This document shows positions 20,207-55,243 of a stretch of 55,243 nt of DNA, one piece after another. The first letter of the stretch is position 1. Each line of letters opens with the position of its first letter. The stretch is from a virus. Where the stretch lies: the IMG/VR virus record IMGVR_UViG_3300025669_000038, positions 1-55,243 of that record. One strand, given 5' to 3'. The notes beneath the pieces are model-generated. The model ran no database searches and had not been told where the DNA came from. It saw nothing but the letters and a program-made list of their open reading frames with translations. Both the position numbers and the translations under genes were made by a program.

Positions 20207-22393
20207 TTATCCCCTCACCACGAATTTATCGACCGTAGATTCATCGAACTCAAATTGCAGTGTATCACGGAAGCCCATGTTCCGATACAGTTGCTCATTC
20301 CCGAACATCCCTACCTTGCCGATGTACCTGGCTCGCGGAATCACCGTCGCAACTCGCTTGATACCTTTGATGTCACACCACTTATCGAACACGCCATCGA
20401 ACCCTGAGATGTGGACTCCGTATTTCGCACATACGGCACGATGAGGGATGTTCCAATGGCTATCGCCTACAAATTCCAGGTACTCATCAAACTCAGGCTT
20501 GAGCTGATCGTACACGCTTCGAGGCATCAGGTATCCAAGCCATCGCCATCGACCGGGACGCGCTACAACGTCTCTCGATTGCTTCAACGTCACGCCTACT
20601 TCATTGAGCTTGGCATCTGTCGGAATATGGCGCTCTTCTGTAGCCTGTGCGCCTACAATCGCATTCGGGAACTGGTTATGCAGCTTCAACAGAACGTCAA
20701 TGTAATCGCGGCTCACCACATGGTCATCATCGAAGAACATCGCTGCTTCATAACCAACATCGTCGAACACTTCGGCCATTGCGCTGTGTAGCTGATGGGC
20801 AATGCACCAATTCAGTTCTTTCACGTCAACAACAGCGGCCTTGAATGGCGCCGCGTTGAGCAGTTTGGCACAATTGCCAGTCAGCTCTTGGTTCTTCAAC
20901 ACATGCTCTTCAATCCCGTATGGCAACTCCTGATTCTTCCACCCATCCTGTCTCAGGAACCAATCCACAAGGTCAGCCATCGTGTTCTCAGCCAGCGCGT
21001 GGAGCGTCGGGGCAAGATACTCTGCCCGATTGAACGAGAACACACAGCCCGCAATGTCGTTTAATCCCAGCATGGCTGTTCTCGGATCTCTTACTAGCAT
21101 ACCGGCCTTCTCAGGATCGACGTTCTCAACCGGCTCCACTGGAGACGACCAAGACACCTTCTTGGGCTTCAGGTTCTTCTCGATCTCATCGAACCGCTCG
21201 ATCCACTGATCTCCGATATTCTCCCACGAGAATTGCTGGACCCACTGACAAGCGACCTTGCCTTTCTCTTCAAGTCTAGTTCTGACCGTATGCGCCCTGC
21301 AAAGAGCTTCGGCAACATCTACAGCCTCAAAGGTAAATCGAGTGCTTTGCTTTCCAAGCGTCCACTCTTCACCGGACATAGGAACAAGCCAGCCGTGAGG
21401 CGCTTCGATAACATCAGGCTCACCAAGAACCGTCTTCCTCATCCGAATCCCTTCAGGCATCCCTAGCAGCTCTGGCATCGAACTATAAGCAGTCGCAATC
21501 ACCGGCTTGCCACAAGCGAACGCCTCTACAATCGGCATCCCGAATCCCTCGCCAGCATTCGTGTTTAGGATCACGTCACAGGCGTTATAGAACTTCGCCA
21601 TTTCAACGTGACTGACGCCGTGCCTGATGATGTCTGGATGAGGCATGAACACCTTGCCGGCCAATCCGAAATGCTTTGCCATCTCCTCGACGTTGAACGC
21701 GCTCGAGCCAGTTCGGTTGCAGTGGAGATACAGCCTCGCCTTGTCATCCCCAGTGCGTTCAAGGAACATAGCAAACGCCTTCAGGTTCACTTCATACTTC
21801 GCTCGTGTTCCCTGGTTGTTTTTGAAGATCCCAACCATGAAATCATCTTGAGCCATCGGTTGCTGAAATACTTCTTCCTTTGAGGTGGCTCTAGGCTTCA
21901 TTACCCGCACGTCAACACCGTGATAGATGGGTTTGCCAATCGGGTACACGTCACCGATGCCCTCTCTGATAACGCGCTCTCCAAACTGGCAGTACGGAAT
22001 GATGTGTACTGCGCCCTTCATGAGCTTCGTCCATAGCGGTGAAAGCGGATCATGGTCAACTGGAGGGTAAAGCGCGTACCTCAGGCCAGAATTCGCGACC
22101 GGCTGACCTCCCGACCAAGCGTCAAAATTCAATAGCCACAAGTCAGGCTTCTCAAGTGACTGCACAATGGGCCAATCTTGAATACCGAATTTGCCTCCCT
22201 GGTTTGTTGAACTGTAGACAGTTACACCATCCCAATCGAACGGTTCGCAGTGGCTCAGACCTGAAATGGCAAACTCTACCATCTGGTGGTCTGAGTGTTT
22301 CTGGACGTGTTGGACGATGTTTTTGCACAGCCGTCCATAGCCCGTAGCCTGCAAATGAGCGTTGCCTGACCATACTATTTTCATAGGAGTCAT
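20207..22393 (-). CDS. Two-domain glycosyltransferase (GT-B plus GT-A)
   Basis: The 728-residue product joins two transferases. The N-terminal part (to about residue 410) has a GT-B plan with NTNAGEGFGMPIVEAFACG, the E-x7-E signature of GT4-like enzymes. The C-terminal part (about 440-700) has AMFFDDDHV, a DxD-type metal motif of a GT-A fold, and a late EFVGDSHWNIPHRAV segment. It lies between fibre-like and tail genes. Addition of a two-sugar unit to a virion protein or host polymer is plausible but inferred. The start could be ATG 22393 or the ATG three codons later. Confidence 0.75.
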   Translation of the reverse strand: MTPMKIVWSGNAHLQATGYGRLCKNIVQHVQKHSDHQMVEFAISGLSHCEPFDWDGVTVYSSTNQGGKFGIQDWPIVQSLEKPDLWLLNFDAWSGGQPVANSGLRYALYPPVDHDPLSPLWTKLMKGAVHIIPYCQFGERVIREGIGDVYPIGKPIYHGVDVRVMKPRATSKEEVFQQPMAQDDFMVGIFKNNQGTRAKYEVNLKAFAMFLERTGDDKARLYLHCNRTGSSAFNVEEMAKHFGLAGKVFMPHPDIIRHGVSHVEMAKFYNACDVILNTNAGEGFGMPIVEAFACGKPVIATAYSSMPELLGMPEGIRMRKTVLGEPDVIEAPHGWLVPMSGEEWTLGKQSTRFTFEAVDVAEALCRAHTVRTRLEEKGKVACQWVQQFSWENIGDQWIERFDEIEKNLKPKKVSWSSPVEPVENVDPEKAGMLVRDPRTAMLGLNDIAGCVFSFNRAEYLAPTLHALAENTMADLVDWFLRQDGWKNQELPYGIEEHVLKNQELTGNCAKLLNAAPFKAAVVDVKELNWCIAHQLHSAMAEVFDDVGYEAAMFFDDDHVVSRDYIDVLLKLHNQFPNAIVGAQATEERHIPTDAKLNEVGVTLKQSRDVVARPGRWRWLGYLMPRSVYDQLKPEFDEYLEFVGDSHWNIPHRAVCAKYGVHISGFDGVFDKWCDIKGIKRVATVIPRARYIGKVGMFGNEQLYRNMGFRDTLQFEFDESTVDKFVVRG

Positions 22394-32246: not shown

Positions 32247-33674
32247 TCAGCTCGCCGCCTTCAGAAGTACAGACGGAGGTGCCGGAATAGCATCTGCTGC
32301 GTTCGTCCGAGGAACACCTGCCCCAAGGAATGACACCGGCGTGAAATGGGCGCTCAGTTGCGTCAATGCGTCTACCGACATCGTGGCGAGGACTTCAGGA
32401 GTCATCGTGCACGCTTCGTTCGCTGCCAGTGCATCAAGCATCCCTTGGCGGGATTGTGCCAGTTCGATCTTGGAGTTGGCGACATAGGCTGCGACTTCAC
32501 CGAACGTCACGCCTGTATTCCCGATGGGCGTATTCTCGTTCAGTGCCACAGGCTCGCCAGGTGCAAGCTCGACCGGCTCGACAGGCACAGGTTCGCCAGG
32601 CACAGGCTCGACCGGCTCGACAGGTACAAGAACGGCAGGCTCGCTGTGTTCCATCATCCACGCCAACTGATCATCCGTCGTGTTGGCAACCAAATCATCC
32701 GCTACGCCTCGTTCTGACAGCGCTTGGATCATCTCTTCTCGACTCATACCGTCCACCTCCCGTAAAACTCTCATCAGTCCAGTCTTGAACCGACTCCAAA
32801 CACTTACTGCTTGTTCTTCGCACGGTGTCTTCACAGGTATCTCCTCGTTAGCAACCACGTAGGTCACTGTTCTATCAACTTCCGTGGCGTCTCCAAGCGT
32901 GATACCGGTGTCTGTAATCTGATAGCTCACTTGGAAATATGACTCTGCGCCGTTCTCAAACACGTTGAACACCACTGAATCTTCGTATAGGTCTGAAATC
33001 CAGACGCTCTCTTCATCCTCGCTCCGTACGGCACGAATGGCTTCGAGGACTGCATCTTCTCGCTGCCTGACGCTTTCGCCTTCGCGGAGGTTTATCCTCA
33101 TGCCAACCCCCTTCTCATTAACACGTCCTGCGCCGCAGCCATCAGCCCACGAGCAAGCTCCAATCGCGTTCGGCAACACAGCAATGTGATCGGGTCTCAG
33201 GTTATGCTGAATTCCCACGTATTCTTCGCCATTGAACGATCCTTCGACCACTTCAAGATCCAGCAGATAACCTGTGGAGACTTCAAGCGGCTCGCCGTTC
33301 TGTAGCTTGTTCAAAGCTACTTCAGCGTCACCACCAAGCTCCAGAGCCTTCTCAATGTCAATCCACAGCTCGCCCTTCAGTGTGGCGCCAGCATAGATGG
33401 GATTGTAGAGCCGCCCTATCACTTCCTCGTCAATGATGTCTCTCGTTCGCGAAGACACATTCTCGCCATTCTCCGTTGGATGACCTACTGGCACTGGAAT
33501 ATCCGACCATTGATCCAACGACACTGACAGTAGCTCTTCTGCCGAAAGATACTCGCCGTTCATCACGCCTTCTTTGACAGCAACTACCGGAACCACGATG
33601 TACTTCCGTCCATCACGTTCTTCTTCTCGTGACTCTGTAGCAATCGTGTTGAAGGTCATCATTCGTTCTTTCAT
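32247..33674 (-). CDS. Prohead protease/scaffold-like protein (DUF2213-like)
   Basis: The start at 33674 overlaps the MuF-like stop (TGATG) and gives 475 residues. The N-terminal half has DIPVPVGHPTENGENVSS, LKGELWIDIEKALELGG, LEVSTGYLLDLEV and PDHIAVLPNAIGACS, the pattern of DUF2213-type prohead proteins. A middle insert and a VEPVEPVPGEPVPVEPV repeat linker (about 32550-32640) lead to a helical C-terminal part like a scaffold. Protease plus scaffold in one chain is common, but no catalytic triad is certain. Confidence 0.65.
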   Translation of the reverse strand: MKERMMTFNTIATESREEERDGRKYIVVPVVAVKEGVMNGEYLSAEELLSVSLDQWSDIPVPVGHPTENGENVSSRTRDIIDEEVIGRLYNPIYAGATLKGELWIDIEKALELGGDAEVALNKLQNGEPLEVSTGYLLDLEVVEGSFNGEEYVGIQHNLRPDHIAVLPNAIGACSWADGCGAGRVNEKGVGMRINLREGESVRQREDAVLEAIRAVRSEDEESVWISDLYEDSVVFNVFENGAESYFQVSYQITDTGITLGDATEVDRTVTYVVANEEIPVKTPCEEQAVSVWSRFKTGLMRVLREVDGMSREEMIQALSERGVADDLVANTTDDQLAWMMEHSEPAVLVPVEPVEPVPGEPVPVEPVELAPGEPVALNENTPIGNTGVTFGEVAAYVANSKIELAQSRQGMLDALAANEACTMTPEVLATMSVDALTQLSAHFTPVSFLGAGVPRTNAADAIPAPPSVLLKAAS

Positions 33675-42189: not shown

Positions 42190-42559
42190 GTATCTTCAGC
42201 CTCTCCTCTAGCTCTTCGTTGCTCAGCTTAGATAGGTCGTTGACTTGTATCGGGCCACCGTCTGGCCCTGAGTGCTCGTGCTTAGACGCATCAGACTGGC
42301 CAAGCATTTGGGTGCCCATCCACTTCAACATCTGCGGGTTGCCGTCTTTGATGGCTGACTTCAACTGCGCTTTCCTAAGCGATATCCGTATGCGCGCGCG
42401 CCCGCGCACGATAGCTTCCGCAATGCCTGGCTCTTCCTTCCTGCGTCGATCGAGAGTATCAGTTGAGACGCCAAGGCCACTTGCGATCTCTTCCATAGTA
42501 CAATCATACGATGCTAGCGTCTCTACTTTTGCGGAATCGAGCTTGATCTTCTTACCCAT
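42149..42559 (-). CDS. terS: Terminase small subunit
   Basis: The 136-residue product has a helix-turn-helix unit (DCTMEEIASGLGVSTDTLDRR) followed by RISLRKAQLKSAIKDGNPQM and MLGQSDASK, the usual layout of DNA-binding small terminase subunits. The large subunit follows directly. Its ATG overlaps the stop region of the methyltransferase gene. Confidence 0.85.
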   Translation of the reverse strand: MGKKIKLDSAKVETLASYDCTMEEIASGLGVSTDTLDRRRKEEPGIAEAIVRGRARIRISLRKAQLKSAIKDGNPQMLKWMGTQMLGQSDASKHEHSGPDGGPIQVNDLSKLSNEELEERLKILDKYIAENTPDSD

Positions 42560-43817
42560 CGCACTTCACCGGCTCTAGTCCGTGTAATGCCATGCGCTCT
42601 AGCACCACAGCGACGTACTTCGGCTCCAGTTCCATGCCGTAACAGACGCGGCCCTCTTGCTCGGCAGCGACTACGGTTGTGCCTGAGCCGAGGAATGGGT
42701 CAGCTACTTGCCCCTCATGGTTGCGGATAGGACGCGCCATGCACTCGATAGGTTTCTGGGTCCCGTGGCCTTTGTCGCCCTTATCATCAACGACCAGCTT
42801 GATGTCCCATACCGTTGACTGGCTACGATCACCGATCCATTGAGCCTTGTTCCCCTTTCGGACAGCATACCAGCATGGTTCATGTCGCCAGTGGTAGTGG
42901 CCTCTCGAGATGGCAAAAATTGTCTTTCTCCAAATGATCTGGCTTCTGATTTGGAATCCAGCAGCGAGGATCGCACTTCCCGTTTCTATAATGTGGTCAC
43001 CGGGTGGTGACCAGGAATATAGGACTTTGCATGGCCAGTCACGAAAGACCTCTCCCCAATCCGTGCGATCGTCGTTCGATACCTCTCCTATGCGGCGAGC
43101 CGCATAGCTTATGTGTCCTTTCGCTGCAGCCTCGTTGCGCCAGTTCGGATCGTATTCAACTCCGTAAGGCGGATCAGTGACCATCAGATAAGGCTCTACC
43201 CCATCGAGCAGCACCTCCACATCCCCAGTGTCAGTTGAATCCCCACACATCACACGATGCGTCCCAGCCTTGCCGGGTATCTCCCATATCTGCCCACGCT
43301 CAACTTCCCACTTCTCAAGCAACTCGGCAGCCTTGTCAACCATCTTAGATGTGGCCTCGCTATCGTCTTCAGGCTCCTCTAAGTCCTCGAACCCCATCAC
43401 GTCCAGGTCGATGTCTTCGATCTCTCCGAGCAGGTCACCAAGCATATCATCGTCCCACTCAGCCAACGTTGAGATCTGATTATCTGCCAGCGCCAGAGCC
43501 TTGCGCCGTGGATCGTCCGTCTTCAGATCAACGCGGCGGACAACGATAAGCTCCTTGCCGGATGTCTCAATCTCTTTCACGGGGATGCCTAGTTTGATGG
43601 CCTCCTCGTAGACTGCGTTTCCCCCTATAACAACCCCAGAAGCGTCTACAACGATGGACCGACCAGCACCTAGTTCACGTAGAGACTTCTCAACGGCAGA
43701 CTTGTTGCGCTCAGGATGCGTTCGTGCATTACGCGGATCCAGCTTGTACGTCTTTTCCTTCTTCGCTTTCGGTACAGTCCGTGCGGCGTTTTTTTTGGGC
43801 ATGTTTTTCGTCGTCAC
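42552..43817 (-). CDS. ParB-domain/DNA methyltransferase fusion
   Basis: The 421-residue product starts at GTG after AAAGGAGACG. Residues about 25-115 form a ParB/Srx-like domain (GAGRSIVVDASGVVIGGNAV ... LALADNQI). A DNA methyltransferase follows with TDPPYG (motif IV) near 213 and DPFLGSGTTVVAAE (motif I) near 382; this order is that of beta-class N6-adenine or N4-cytosine enzymes. Such fusions are frequent next to phage terminase genes and may protect phage DNA. Confidence 0.85.
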   Translation of the reverse strand: MTTKNMPKKNAARTVPKAKKEKTYKLDPRNARTHPERNKSAVEKSLRELGAGRSIVVDASGVVIGGNAVYEEAIKLGIPVKEIETSGKELIVVRRVDLKTDDPRRKALALADNQISTLAEWDDDMLGDLLGEIEDIDLDVMGFEDLEEPEDDSEATSKMVDKAAELLEKWEVERGQIWEIPGKAGTHRVMCGDSTDTGDVEVLLDGVEPYLMVTDPPYGVEYDPNWRNEAAAKGHISYAARRIGEVSNDDRTDWGEVFRDWPCKVLYSWSPPGDHIIETGSAILAAGFQIRSQIIWRKTIFAISRGHYHWRHEPCWYAVRKGNKAQWIGDRSQSTVWDIKLVVDDKGDKGHGTQKPIECMARPIRNHEGQVADPFLGSGTTVVAAEQEGRVCYGMELEPKYVAVVLERMALHGLEPVKCDG

Positions 43818-52518: not shown

Positions 52519-52677
52519 TTACCTGCCCGGCATCTCTTCAATCTCGCGTGTGAAATAGTACGACTCTCTCCCGTCTTTTAGCTGAACGAGCCAAACACAG
52601 CACCTCTCCTCAGGTTGTTCCTTGCCGACAATGATGCCGTAGCCGTCCGCTGTCTTCACTTGTGATCCGATGTTCAT
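52519..52677 (-). CDS. 52-residue SH3/KOW-like protein
   Basis: The ATG at 52677 overlaps the stop of the helicase-loader gene (ATGA). The product begins MNIGSQVKTADGYGIIVGKE and has CVWLVQLKDGRESYYFTREI. Turns at GxG and alternating strands suggest a small barrel like the next gene. Function unknown. Confidence 0.6.
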   Translation of the reverse strand: MNIGSQVKTADGYGIIVGKEQPEERCCVWLVQLKDGRESYYFTREIEEMPGR

Positions 52678-53264
52678 TCCGCATCCCTTCTATCATCCCC
52701 GCGCAAAGAAAGCATCTTGCACGACCCTCGCCACCTAGACAGAACTCGATCTCCGTATCTCTTTGCCATCTCTGGAGCGTCAAGATTAGTTGTGACCATG
52801 ATAGGCTTTTCGTTCTCCCATCGATAATCAAAGATTGCCTGCAACGCTACCCAGATGAAGTCGCTGCCAACCTTCTCGTACTCAGTGCCTAGATCGTCGA
52901 TGAATAGAACGTCAGCTGCATTCGCATCTCCAACTGGATCAGTAAAGTCTACAACTGACGACCGGACCGCATTTGCTAGATCATTGGCCTTCCAATAGAC
53001 GTATCTTCGGTAAGGCGAATAGGATTCAAGACCATCCTCCAGTTCTCTCATGACAGGAATGTTAGCAGCCTCTATATCGTTCAGCGTAGAAATGATGATA
53101 TGAGTTTTGCCAGTACCTACTGGACCGCTTATGATGAGTCCGCCTATCTCCTCAGACACGATCTTCTTCGCATGCTCAACGGTTGATTTGTTAGCAGAAT
53201 TCACATTGCACGTTTCTAGAGATACGTTCTTGAACCGCGAGCCAATCTTTGATCCGAGTATCAT
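52674..53264 (-). CDS. DnaC/IstB-like helicase loader
   Basis: The start at 53264 lies three bases after the initiator stop and follows GAGGAG; it gives 196 residues beginning MILGSKIGSRFKNVSLETCN. Walker A is GPVGTGKTH near residue 50, Walker B VLFIDDLG near 120, and a VTTNL sensor near 160. The protein should load the replicative helicase at the origin, together with the initiator encoded directly upstream. No phage helicase gene was found, so the host helicase is the probable partner. Confidence 0.82.
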   Translation of the reverse strand: MILGSKIGSRFKNVSLETCNVNSANKSTVEHAKKIVSEEIGGLIISGPVGTGKTHIIISTLNDIEAANIPVMRELEDGLESYSPYRRYVYWKANDLANAVRSSVVDFTDPVGDANAADVLFIDDLGTEYEKVGSDFIWVALQAIFDYRWENEKPIMVTTNLDAPEMAKRYGDRVLSRWRGSCKMLSLRGDDRRDAE

Positions 53265-53265
53265 A

Positions 53266-54135
53266 TCACTCCTCGTCGAACTTGAAGTCGTTTGGATCTC
53301 TGGTTTTCGATCTGTTCGGTTCGCCGTTACGGGATGGCTTCTTCGGCTTATCCCAGTCTTCCCAGTGACGATCCGGCCCAATGAATGTCGCCGCTCGCTT
53401 GATGAACTTAGGCTCAGCACCATCAGCGATACAGAACTCACGGTAATGCTTGGCCGCTTGAATGATTACAGATGGATCAACTGGCTTGTGGCCGTTCTCT
53501 TTCCCTGGGCGTCCATTCACAGTTGTAGTCGTCCATGCCTTTCGCGCCTTCGTCTTTTCTTCGCTGCGCTTCATTGCCAAGAATTCTTTCCAGAAGACTT
53601 CAAAGAGATCAGTCGAACCTTTTTCGACCAATAGTTTCTTTGGGTCTGGGTCTAGTCTTGTCTGGGTCTTGTCTGGGTCTAGGTCTAGAGGTACGTTTAC
53701 GGTACGTTTACGGTACGTAGACGTTACGTATTCTGAAAGTGCCTGTTCTTCTAGGTTTGAAGGCTCTCTCGGGAACCTATCATCAGGTGCTATGTCCTTC
53801 CTGAATCTCCTCCGTGAATTGATCAAATGGAGGTATTCTGTACCATTAACGGAATAGGTTGCTGCGATAGGTCCGACCGTACACGTAACGAGTTCGTTAC
53901 GCCAACGGGCCGTTTCCGTTACGTTTATCTCGCCATTAGACCAACGATGAGGAAACAGCGTAGCCAACAGCATTTTAGGATCAGCGTAGTAGTTGCCATA
54001 ATCGTCAGCCTGGGCTATAAGGCGGGTGAAAAGAGTCTCTGCGCCAAGCGACAGCGCATTGACCTTCTCGCTGAATGGATAGGATTTGAGTAGTGGATTC
54101 CATGGTTCGCGTTTTGTGGTACCTTTCGCTGGCAT
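53266..54135 (-). CDS. Replication initiator (phage O/DnaD-type)
   Basis: The 289-residue product has SLGAETLFTRLIAQADDYGN and a winged-helix-like N-terminal domain ending near EYLHLINSRRRFRKD, typical of phage replication organisers. A repeat-containing linker (DLDPDKTQTRLDPDPKK) follows, then a C-terminal domain with FWKEFLAMKRSEEKT. The loader gene follows at once. The linker and preceding codons hold DNA iterons, as in lambda gene O, where the origin lies inside the initiator gene. Confidence 0.75.
   Translation of the reverse strand: MPAKGTTKREPWNPLLKSYPFSEKVNALSLGAETLFTRLIAQADDYGNYYADPKMLLATLFPHRWSNGEINVTETARWRNELVTCTVGPIAATYSVNGTEYLHLINSRRRFRKDIAPDDRFPREPSNLEEQALSEYVTSTYRKRTVNVPLDLDPDKTQTRLDPDPKKLLVEKGSTDLFEVFWKEFLAMKRSEEKTKARKAWTTTTVNGRPGKENGHKPVDPSVIIQAAKHYREFCIADGAEPKFIKRAATFIGPDRHWEDWDKPKKPSRNGEPNRSKTRDPNDFKFDEE
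53641..53735. repeat. Iteron cluster inside the initiator gene (candidate origin)
   Basis: On the plus strand four adjacent 11-bp units begin at 53692, 53703, 53714 and 53725: TACGTTTACGG twice, TACGTAGACGT and TACGTATTCTG. The period is close to one helix turn. The adjoining 53641-53691 holds a second degenerate series built on GTCTGGGTCT and GTCTAG. The layout resembles the iterons of lambdoid origins. Confidence 0.7.
53884..53901. repeat. Inverted repeat related to the iterons
   Basis: CGTAACGA and TCGTTACG form an 8-bp inverted repeat with a 2-bp centre inside the initiator gene, about 150 bp from the iterons. CGTTACG also occurs at 53722-53728 and 53917-53923. The site may be bound by the same initiator protein. 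Confidence 0.5.
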
Positions 54136-54832: not shown

Positions 54833-55243
54833 CTCTGCATCTCCTTTTTGAAGCTCTTGCAGAGAGCGTCGATTTCCTTGGCCGCTGCTACCAGTGCCGC
54901 CCTCAGCTTCACATGAAAGTCTTCATCTGGGAACACGCGAATTATCAGCATCCTCATTCCTGGGTAGTACGAAACGAAGTCCCACCATTTCCTGCCGCTC
55001 ACCAATAGGCTTCCTTGCACCTGATGGAAGTATTGCGATGGCAGTTTCGGATCCAACAGCAACGCAACCTGTGTCTTGCCTTCAGGATTCTTCAGCTCGA
55101 CACCGCCATCTTCTCCAACAAGTCCATCCGGGCTACATCCGAACAAGCCACTATCGTCAAGGCAGAATCCGACCTCATCAACCAGAACGTCTTGCTCCAT
55201 TCCGTAGACTTGTCGGCTTTCTTTCTCTCGCCGGATGCCTTCC
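54829..55243 (-). CDS. YqaJ-type recombination exonuclease, C-terminal part
   Basis: The frame enters from base 1 of the window and ends at 54829. It carries GLFGCSPDGLVGEDGGVELK, giving the SPDG and ELK residues of the PD-(D/E)xK active site, and later KLPSQYFHQVQGSLLVSG with the conserved Gln. The C-terminus is helical (AAAKEIDALCKSFKKEM). A start at 55200 would be an artefact, as it lacks the N-terminal helix found at 1-323. Confidence 0.88.
   Translation of the reverse strand, partial: EGIRREKESRQVYGMEQDVLVDEVGFCLDDSGLFGCSPDGLVGEDGGVELKNPEGKTQVALLLDPKLPSQYFHQVQGSLLVSGRKWWDFVSYYPGMRMLIIRVFPDEDFHVKLRAALVAAAKEIDALCKSFKKEMQR
55118..55243. repeat. Terminal direct overlap, right copy
   Basis: This is the second copy of the 126-base overlap with the window start: 108 bases are identical and the outer 18 carry four synonymous changes. 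Joining the ends once gives a circle of about 55,117 bp with an intact nuclease gene. Confidence 0.92.

Follow-up and report, generated by a model that had tools for sequence, protein, structure and literature searches.

Most likely, the locus described here is a tailed phage's origin of theta replication, located within the gene for the phage's initiator protein, and the phage very probably starts to copy its DNA at two clusters of short repeats within that gene. An earlier sequence-only reading had proposed a candidate replication origin in the initiator gene; the families to which the genes belong, constraint at the DNA level and the presence of the same iteron type elsewhere now support it.

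The window that we analyzed, meaning the whole stretch of DNA, is a complete IMG/VR virus record of 55,243 bp. Its first and last 126 bases (1–126 and 55118–55243) agree except for 4 mismatches close to one edge, which makes it probable that the contig represents a complete tailed-phage genome closed into a circle. Genes for portal, terminase and tape-measure proteins were found in the window, and a YqaJ-like exonuclease gene extends to the junction of the record ends. Elsewhere, a 39-bp tandem repeat (32547–32628) lies inside a gene with a profile match to DUF2213/head maturation protease, and a 728-aa protein (20207–22393) carries a group-1 glycosyltransferase domain and, in its C-terminal half, a weak match to family 2. 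GC skew is negative and monotone across the whole window; since the major genes are all on the minus strand, the skew is uninformative as an origin marker, a check that the sequence-only reading had proposed.

The initiator gene and the adjacent helicase-loader gene

The proteins concerned are encoded as follows:

53266–54135, minus strand: replication initiator gene, 289 aa (PHROG matches at E 2e-12 to 6e-5; wHTH topology in AlphaFold2)
53824–54072, minus strand: predicted winged helix-turn-helix (wHTH) DNA-binding domain, residues 22–104 (AlphaFold2 and fold matches)
53266–53643, minus strand: C-terminal domain, from about residue 165 to the end (blastp comparison of N- and C-parts; PHROG 26426 match)
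52674–53264, minus strand: DnaC-like helicase loader (phrog_50, E 4e-31; phrog_3277, E 3e-17)

The initiator is thus laid out as an N-terminal wHTH domain, a linker and a swappable C-terminal domain. It matches PHROGs for replication protein (26426, E 2e-12, spanning residues 170–279), replication initiation (270, E 1e-11), primosomal (9327) and DnaD-like (1701) proteins. A Pfam search of the initiator returned no family at E ≤ 1, neither a lambda O family nor the RepA_N domain (PF06970), and there was no O-like name among its PHROG matches.

We built an AlphaFold2 model of the N-domain with ten relatives. The model (mean pLDDT 72.8) places helices at residues 30–42, 53–60 and 72–83 and wing strands at 91–104, which gives the order helix-helix-helix-wing. 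Replisome organizer proteins were among its best viral fold matches, and a Foldseek search of the fold against the PDB returned winged-helix matches that were weak and generic, with no E-value under 0.001. The full-length model is of low confidence from about residue 109 to 177, the predicted disordered linker. The C-terminal domain is presumed to load the helicase or to contact the loader. PHROG matches and a start codon scan place the helicase-loader gene directly after the initiator gene, with its likely ATG start at 53264, 1 bp beyond the initiator stop.

Two arrays of 11-bp repeats inside the initiator gene

Three groups of repeats were located within the gene:

53878–53923, minus strand: iteron array A, CGGAAACG GCC CGTTGGCG TAA CGAACTCG TTA CGTGTACG (CG phasing, synonymous identity)
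53690–53734, minus strand: iteron array B, three perfect CGTNNACG-NNN units and one degenerate unit (TRF, motif scan, shuffles)
53641–53686, minus strand: short TAGACC/CAGACA tandem repeats, lying 3′ of array B when read on the coding strand (TRF)

Each repeat unit is 11 bases long and has a palindromic core; on the coding strand it reads CGTNNACG-NNN. Because it consists of CGTNNACG plus three bases, CG recurs every 5 and then every 6 bp. Array B contains the four abutting 11-bp iterons that had been noticed from the sequence: three perfect units at 53716–53723, 53705–53712 and 53694–53701 and a degenerate one at 53727–53734, read by the motif scan on the coding strand as (AGAATACG TAA) CGTCTACG TAC CGTAAACG TAC CGTAAACG TAC. 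TRF reported an 11-bp tandem array at 53690–53729 with 3.6 copies and 89% matches, and array B gives the strongest short-period tandem self-match in the window (28/33 at period 11). Array A, ~ 150 bp away, has four 11-bp-phased cores with 0–2 mismatches each on the coding strand. It sits in the folded domain, outside the linker, and covers codons for the predicted recognition helix (residues 72–83, 53887–53922). When alternating 5/6-bp CG runs were counted across the whole 55-kb window, array A had 9 CGs (53878–53922) and array B had 7 (53694–53727); the next best run had 3.

Other elements of the sequence-only reading also proved to be present, some in altered form. Its inverted repeat exists (53877–53891/53894–53908, 80% complementary) but is better seen as part of the 11-bp-phased array A. 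The cluster, described there as within 300 bp of the initiator gene, lies inside the gene, as the title of that reading had it, and not merely near it. The second, degenerate repeat series is the GTCTGG/TAGACC run at 53641–53686. This TAGACC tract encodes the linker LDLDPDKTQTRLDPDP, and together with array B it encodes the predicted disordered linker between the N- and C-domains. The 30-bp blocks around the arrays are 40–67% AT, and a pronounced AT-rich tract, as known from ori-lambda, was not seen there.

Proteins of the wHTH type often autoregulate. The arrays might accordingly be an operator or silencer of the initiator's own operon, working by repression or as a transcription block, with the real origin elsewhere; that array A forms a separate cluster and that no AT-rich tract is evident would both fit such a role. 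We regard this as very unlikely. The arrays are deep inside the gene, away from its promoter, and array B occupies the same linker position as in many initiators, including the annotated origin gene of phage Tuc2009. In addition, tandem self-match and CG-run scans detected no competing iteron cluster in the window.

Constraint on the arrays at the DNA level

We asked whether the repeats might arise simply from a flexible, repetitive linker in the protein, without any function at the DNA level. The TAGACC tract indeed codes for a simple LDLDPDP linker, and low-complexity linkers occur in many initiators. Peptide repeats, however, cannot generate an 11-bp period, because 11 is not a multiple of 3 and the repeat cycles through all three frames. 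The period-11 self-match was reached in 0/5000 synonymous codon permutations within the gene and in 0/5000 redraws from genome codon usage, and the count of the motif ACGTA[AC]C was reached in 0/5000 given the protein. The TAGACC tract was less extreme in the shuffle tests (23/5000 and 5/5000) and may partly reflect linker coding.

Synonymous codon identity was compared in seven sequences, the window and six relatives. It was 0.80 in residues 71–87 and 136–148 versus 0.53 elsewhere, a value that no circular shift of the array mask attained. Residues 71–87, which cover array A, had a synonymous identity of 0.82 and ranked 1 of 136 windows of that length; array B alone had 0.77 and ranked 12 of 140. 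These sequence comparisons indicate that the repeats are under constraint at the DNA level in the relatives.

The refutation by amino-acid repeats that the sequence-only reading had itself suggested was thus put to the test, and the origin reading was not refuted by either the synonymous shuffles or the synonymous conservation. On these two grounds, we rejected the amino-acid-repeat explanation for arrays A and B. That the repeats as a whole merely follow from the linker peptide is highly improbable, also since array A lies in a folded domain; this explanation is disfavored for both arrays and survives only for the TAGACC tract.

Inheritance of the N-domain together with the arrays

Six close relatives of the initiator were found, 66–70% identical to it across the N-terminal part, along with one distant relative (L015) at 41%; a scan of genome contigs returned one relative only. 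All six close relatives keep both arrays. The distant one keeps array B only and lacks array A, and the CG phasing of its array B was reached in 87/2000 shuffles and is not compelling alone.

A narrower version of the origin reading takes array B alone as the origin and array A as a recombination or regulatory element fixed for some other reason. It draws on the absence of array A from the distant relative and on the lack of a comparable second array among the 67 pattern loci described below. We think this version unlikely, though deserving of serious weight: array A shares unit and phasing with array B, it is present in all six close relatives, and synonymous conservation is stronger at array A than at array B.

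Comparison of N- and C-parts by blastp showed that the C-terminal domain of the initiator in the window is unrelated or only weakly related to those of the close relatives, which also differ from one another. Two of these relatives, L003 and L009, share 96% identity in the N-part, and their C-parts match over only ~ 21 linker residues; the C-part of L003 resembles that of L005, and that of L009 resembles L007. Across the first 150 codons L003 and L009 differ at 37 positions, with array A contained in a 65-nt mismatch-free stretch and the differences in array B falling only outside the CG steps. Their DNA homology fades in and just after the TAGACC tract. Since N-parts are kept and C-parts are swapped at this position, the N-domain and the arrays behave as a unit that is joined to the C-part at the short-repeat tract. 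Two near-identical phages (L005:1101–1841 and L006:5953–6603) differ in how many copies of a IKAGGYIKAGWF-like tandem peptide repeat are encoded by the gene that follows the initiator; L015, too, has a repeat protein close by.

The window also encodes a ParB-like domain, forming the N-terminal part of a fusion to an N6/N4-type DNA methyltransferase (42552–43817). The arrays could on this account be a partition site, centromere-like, for the phage's ParB-like protein. This is extremely unlikely, as that protein is encoded ~ 10 kb away, the motif is found across many initiator families, and the initiator N-domain and the arrays travel together between phages regardless of which gene comes next.

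Occurrence of the iteron type in other phages

We scanned IMG/VR DNA for exact matches to three tandem CGTNNACGNNN units, a pattern blind to genes. The scan returned 67 contig stretches with a locus GC of 0.26 to 0.70, and 57 of these 67 lie at residue 95–170, the linker, of an ORF of 180–400 aa. In control scans with the same units at other spacings, period 12 gave 66 stretches, 12 of them so placed, and period 10 gave 21 (8 so placed). The period-11 ORFs belong mainly to DnaD-like, primosomal and replication-initiation PHROGs; those at period 12 are mixed and include ribonucleotide reductases and some initiators, and many of those at period 10 are one family that is present in the period-11 set too. 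In some initiator-family genes, CGTNNACG cores are in tandem at 10-bp (L151–L171) or 12-bp spacing (part of L085–L150). Iteron spacing may be family-specific. A few pattern matches (L035/L079, L045, L049/L061, L051 and L070) lie outside any plausible initiator ORF and may be due to chance.

The 67 stretches are not independent and fall into clusters of 38, 16 and 3 and a few smaller ones. By hhalign of N-domains, the family of the window links to L084 (97%) and L040 (82%) and shows no detectable homology to the large Firmicutes-phage and DUF1376 clusters (2% and 0.1%). As no homology was detected between the N-domains of the large clusters and that of the window, it is unproven that the motif goes back to a common ancestor. 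A second alternating run of at least 5 CGs in the same ORF was seen at none of the 67 pattern loci.

Acinetobacter phage AbP2 and Streptococcus phage Javan64 are named phages with CGTNNACG-type units. Short repeats of other kinds were also seen: an 11-bp repeat with a different sequence lies in the initiator linker of Lactobacillus phage phiAT3 (L175:1389–1430), and gp49 of Listeria phage A118 (L178:9609–10541) has short repeats of other periods.

Comparison with known intragenic origins

In lambda-type O genes, the origin lies in the middle of the initiator gene as several tandem inverted-repeat iterons, and a helicase-loader gene follows (PMC7466680). The locus described here shares with phage lambda O/ori-lambda, and with the O genes of Stx phages, the intragenic position of the origin, here a predicted one, the tandem iterons and the loader gene next to it. 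The iterons of lambda are ~ 19 bp long and stand beside a clear AT-rich tract, whereas here they are 11 bp long, form two arrays with no marked AT-rich tract seen nearby, and the initiator matched no lambda O model. The parallel with lambda O/ori that had been drawn from the sequence holds for the logic of the arrangement; it does not extend to the protein, no lambda O homologue by any model matched, and a pronounced AT-rich tract was not seen.

The N-terminal DNA-binding domain of plasmid pSK41 Rep binds four Rep boxes located centrally within rep, where the origin encodes the linker, and the C-terminal domain is separate; in the hybrid Rep of pPR9, N-domain and origin were exchanged as a unit (PMC5703833). 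Known or putative origin boxes that are central in the gene and encode the linker between N- and C-domains are common to this RepA_N-family protein and to the initiator here, a likeness of working and not of membership: pSK41 and pPR9 are plasmids with other iterons, and the initiator has no RepA_N match. That N-domain and arrays are kept and C-domains swapped is comparable with pPR9 versus pSK41, with the difference that here the C-domain is the part replaced around a conserved N-domain.

The rep gene (orf16) of Lactococcus phage Tuc2009 is annotated 'contains origin of replication'. Its product is a DnaD-like initiator, and, similar to the window, the linker has four 11-bp repeats and then short AGGAT-type repeats. 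It differs in the iteron (CAACCAAATGT versus CGTNNACG), in belonging to another N-domain family and in having one array. The AbP2 primosomal protein, with a DUF1376-type N-domain, and the Javan64 initiator likewise have tandem 11-bp CGTNNACG-type linker units and then short tandem repeats, but each has a single array and an N-domain without detectable sequence relation to that of the window.

A model for initiation

What the sequences show is the gene family, the repeats with their position and their conservation as DNA, and the swapping of C-domains beside them; binding, melting and origin firing we infer, in line with what has been described for lambda-type O (PMC7466680) and pSK41 Rep (PMC5703833). 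In both arrays, the 11-bp CGTNNACG iterons would be bound by the N-terminal wHTH domain. With a palindromic unit at each helical turn, the sites would lie on one face of the DNA, where the initiator would multimerize. The DNA would then open beside array B, toward the side of the TAGACC repeats and the linker, and the C-terminal domain, with the DnaC-like loader from the adjacent gene, would deliver the host replicative helicase. Array A may belong to the origin as a second part, acting for instance in looping, or be a control site; it could be a regulatory site instead of an origin part.

Implications

Origins inside initiator genes have precedents among other phages and plasmids. The doubling of the cluster and the breadth over which the CGTNNACG repeat type is spread look undescribed, judging from a partial, open-access literature in which we found no paper describing a CGTNNACG iteron family. 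As a tentative but quite possible generalization, initiators with sequence-unrelated N-domains would share one 11-bp palindromic grammar, CGTNNACG-NNN, in their linker DNA; N-domain and iterons would make up one cassette, joined by recombination at the short repeats downstream; and in the clade of the window, array A shares its DNA with codons for the recognition helix that is presumed to read it, so that protein and site would be forced to co-evolve.

If the shared grammar holds, origins would be readable from sequence across many phages, and confirmation would yield a signature by which the replication origins of uncultured phages could be located from sequence. It would also mean that a DNA-binding domain and its sites act as one exchangeable unit, and that the codons for a recognition helix lie inside the site which that helix presumably binds, which would tie origin specificity to protein evolution.
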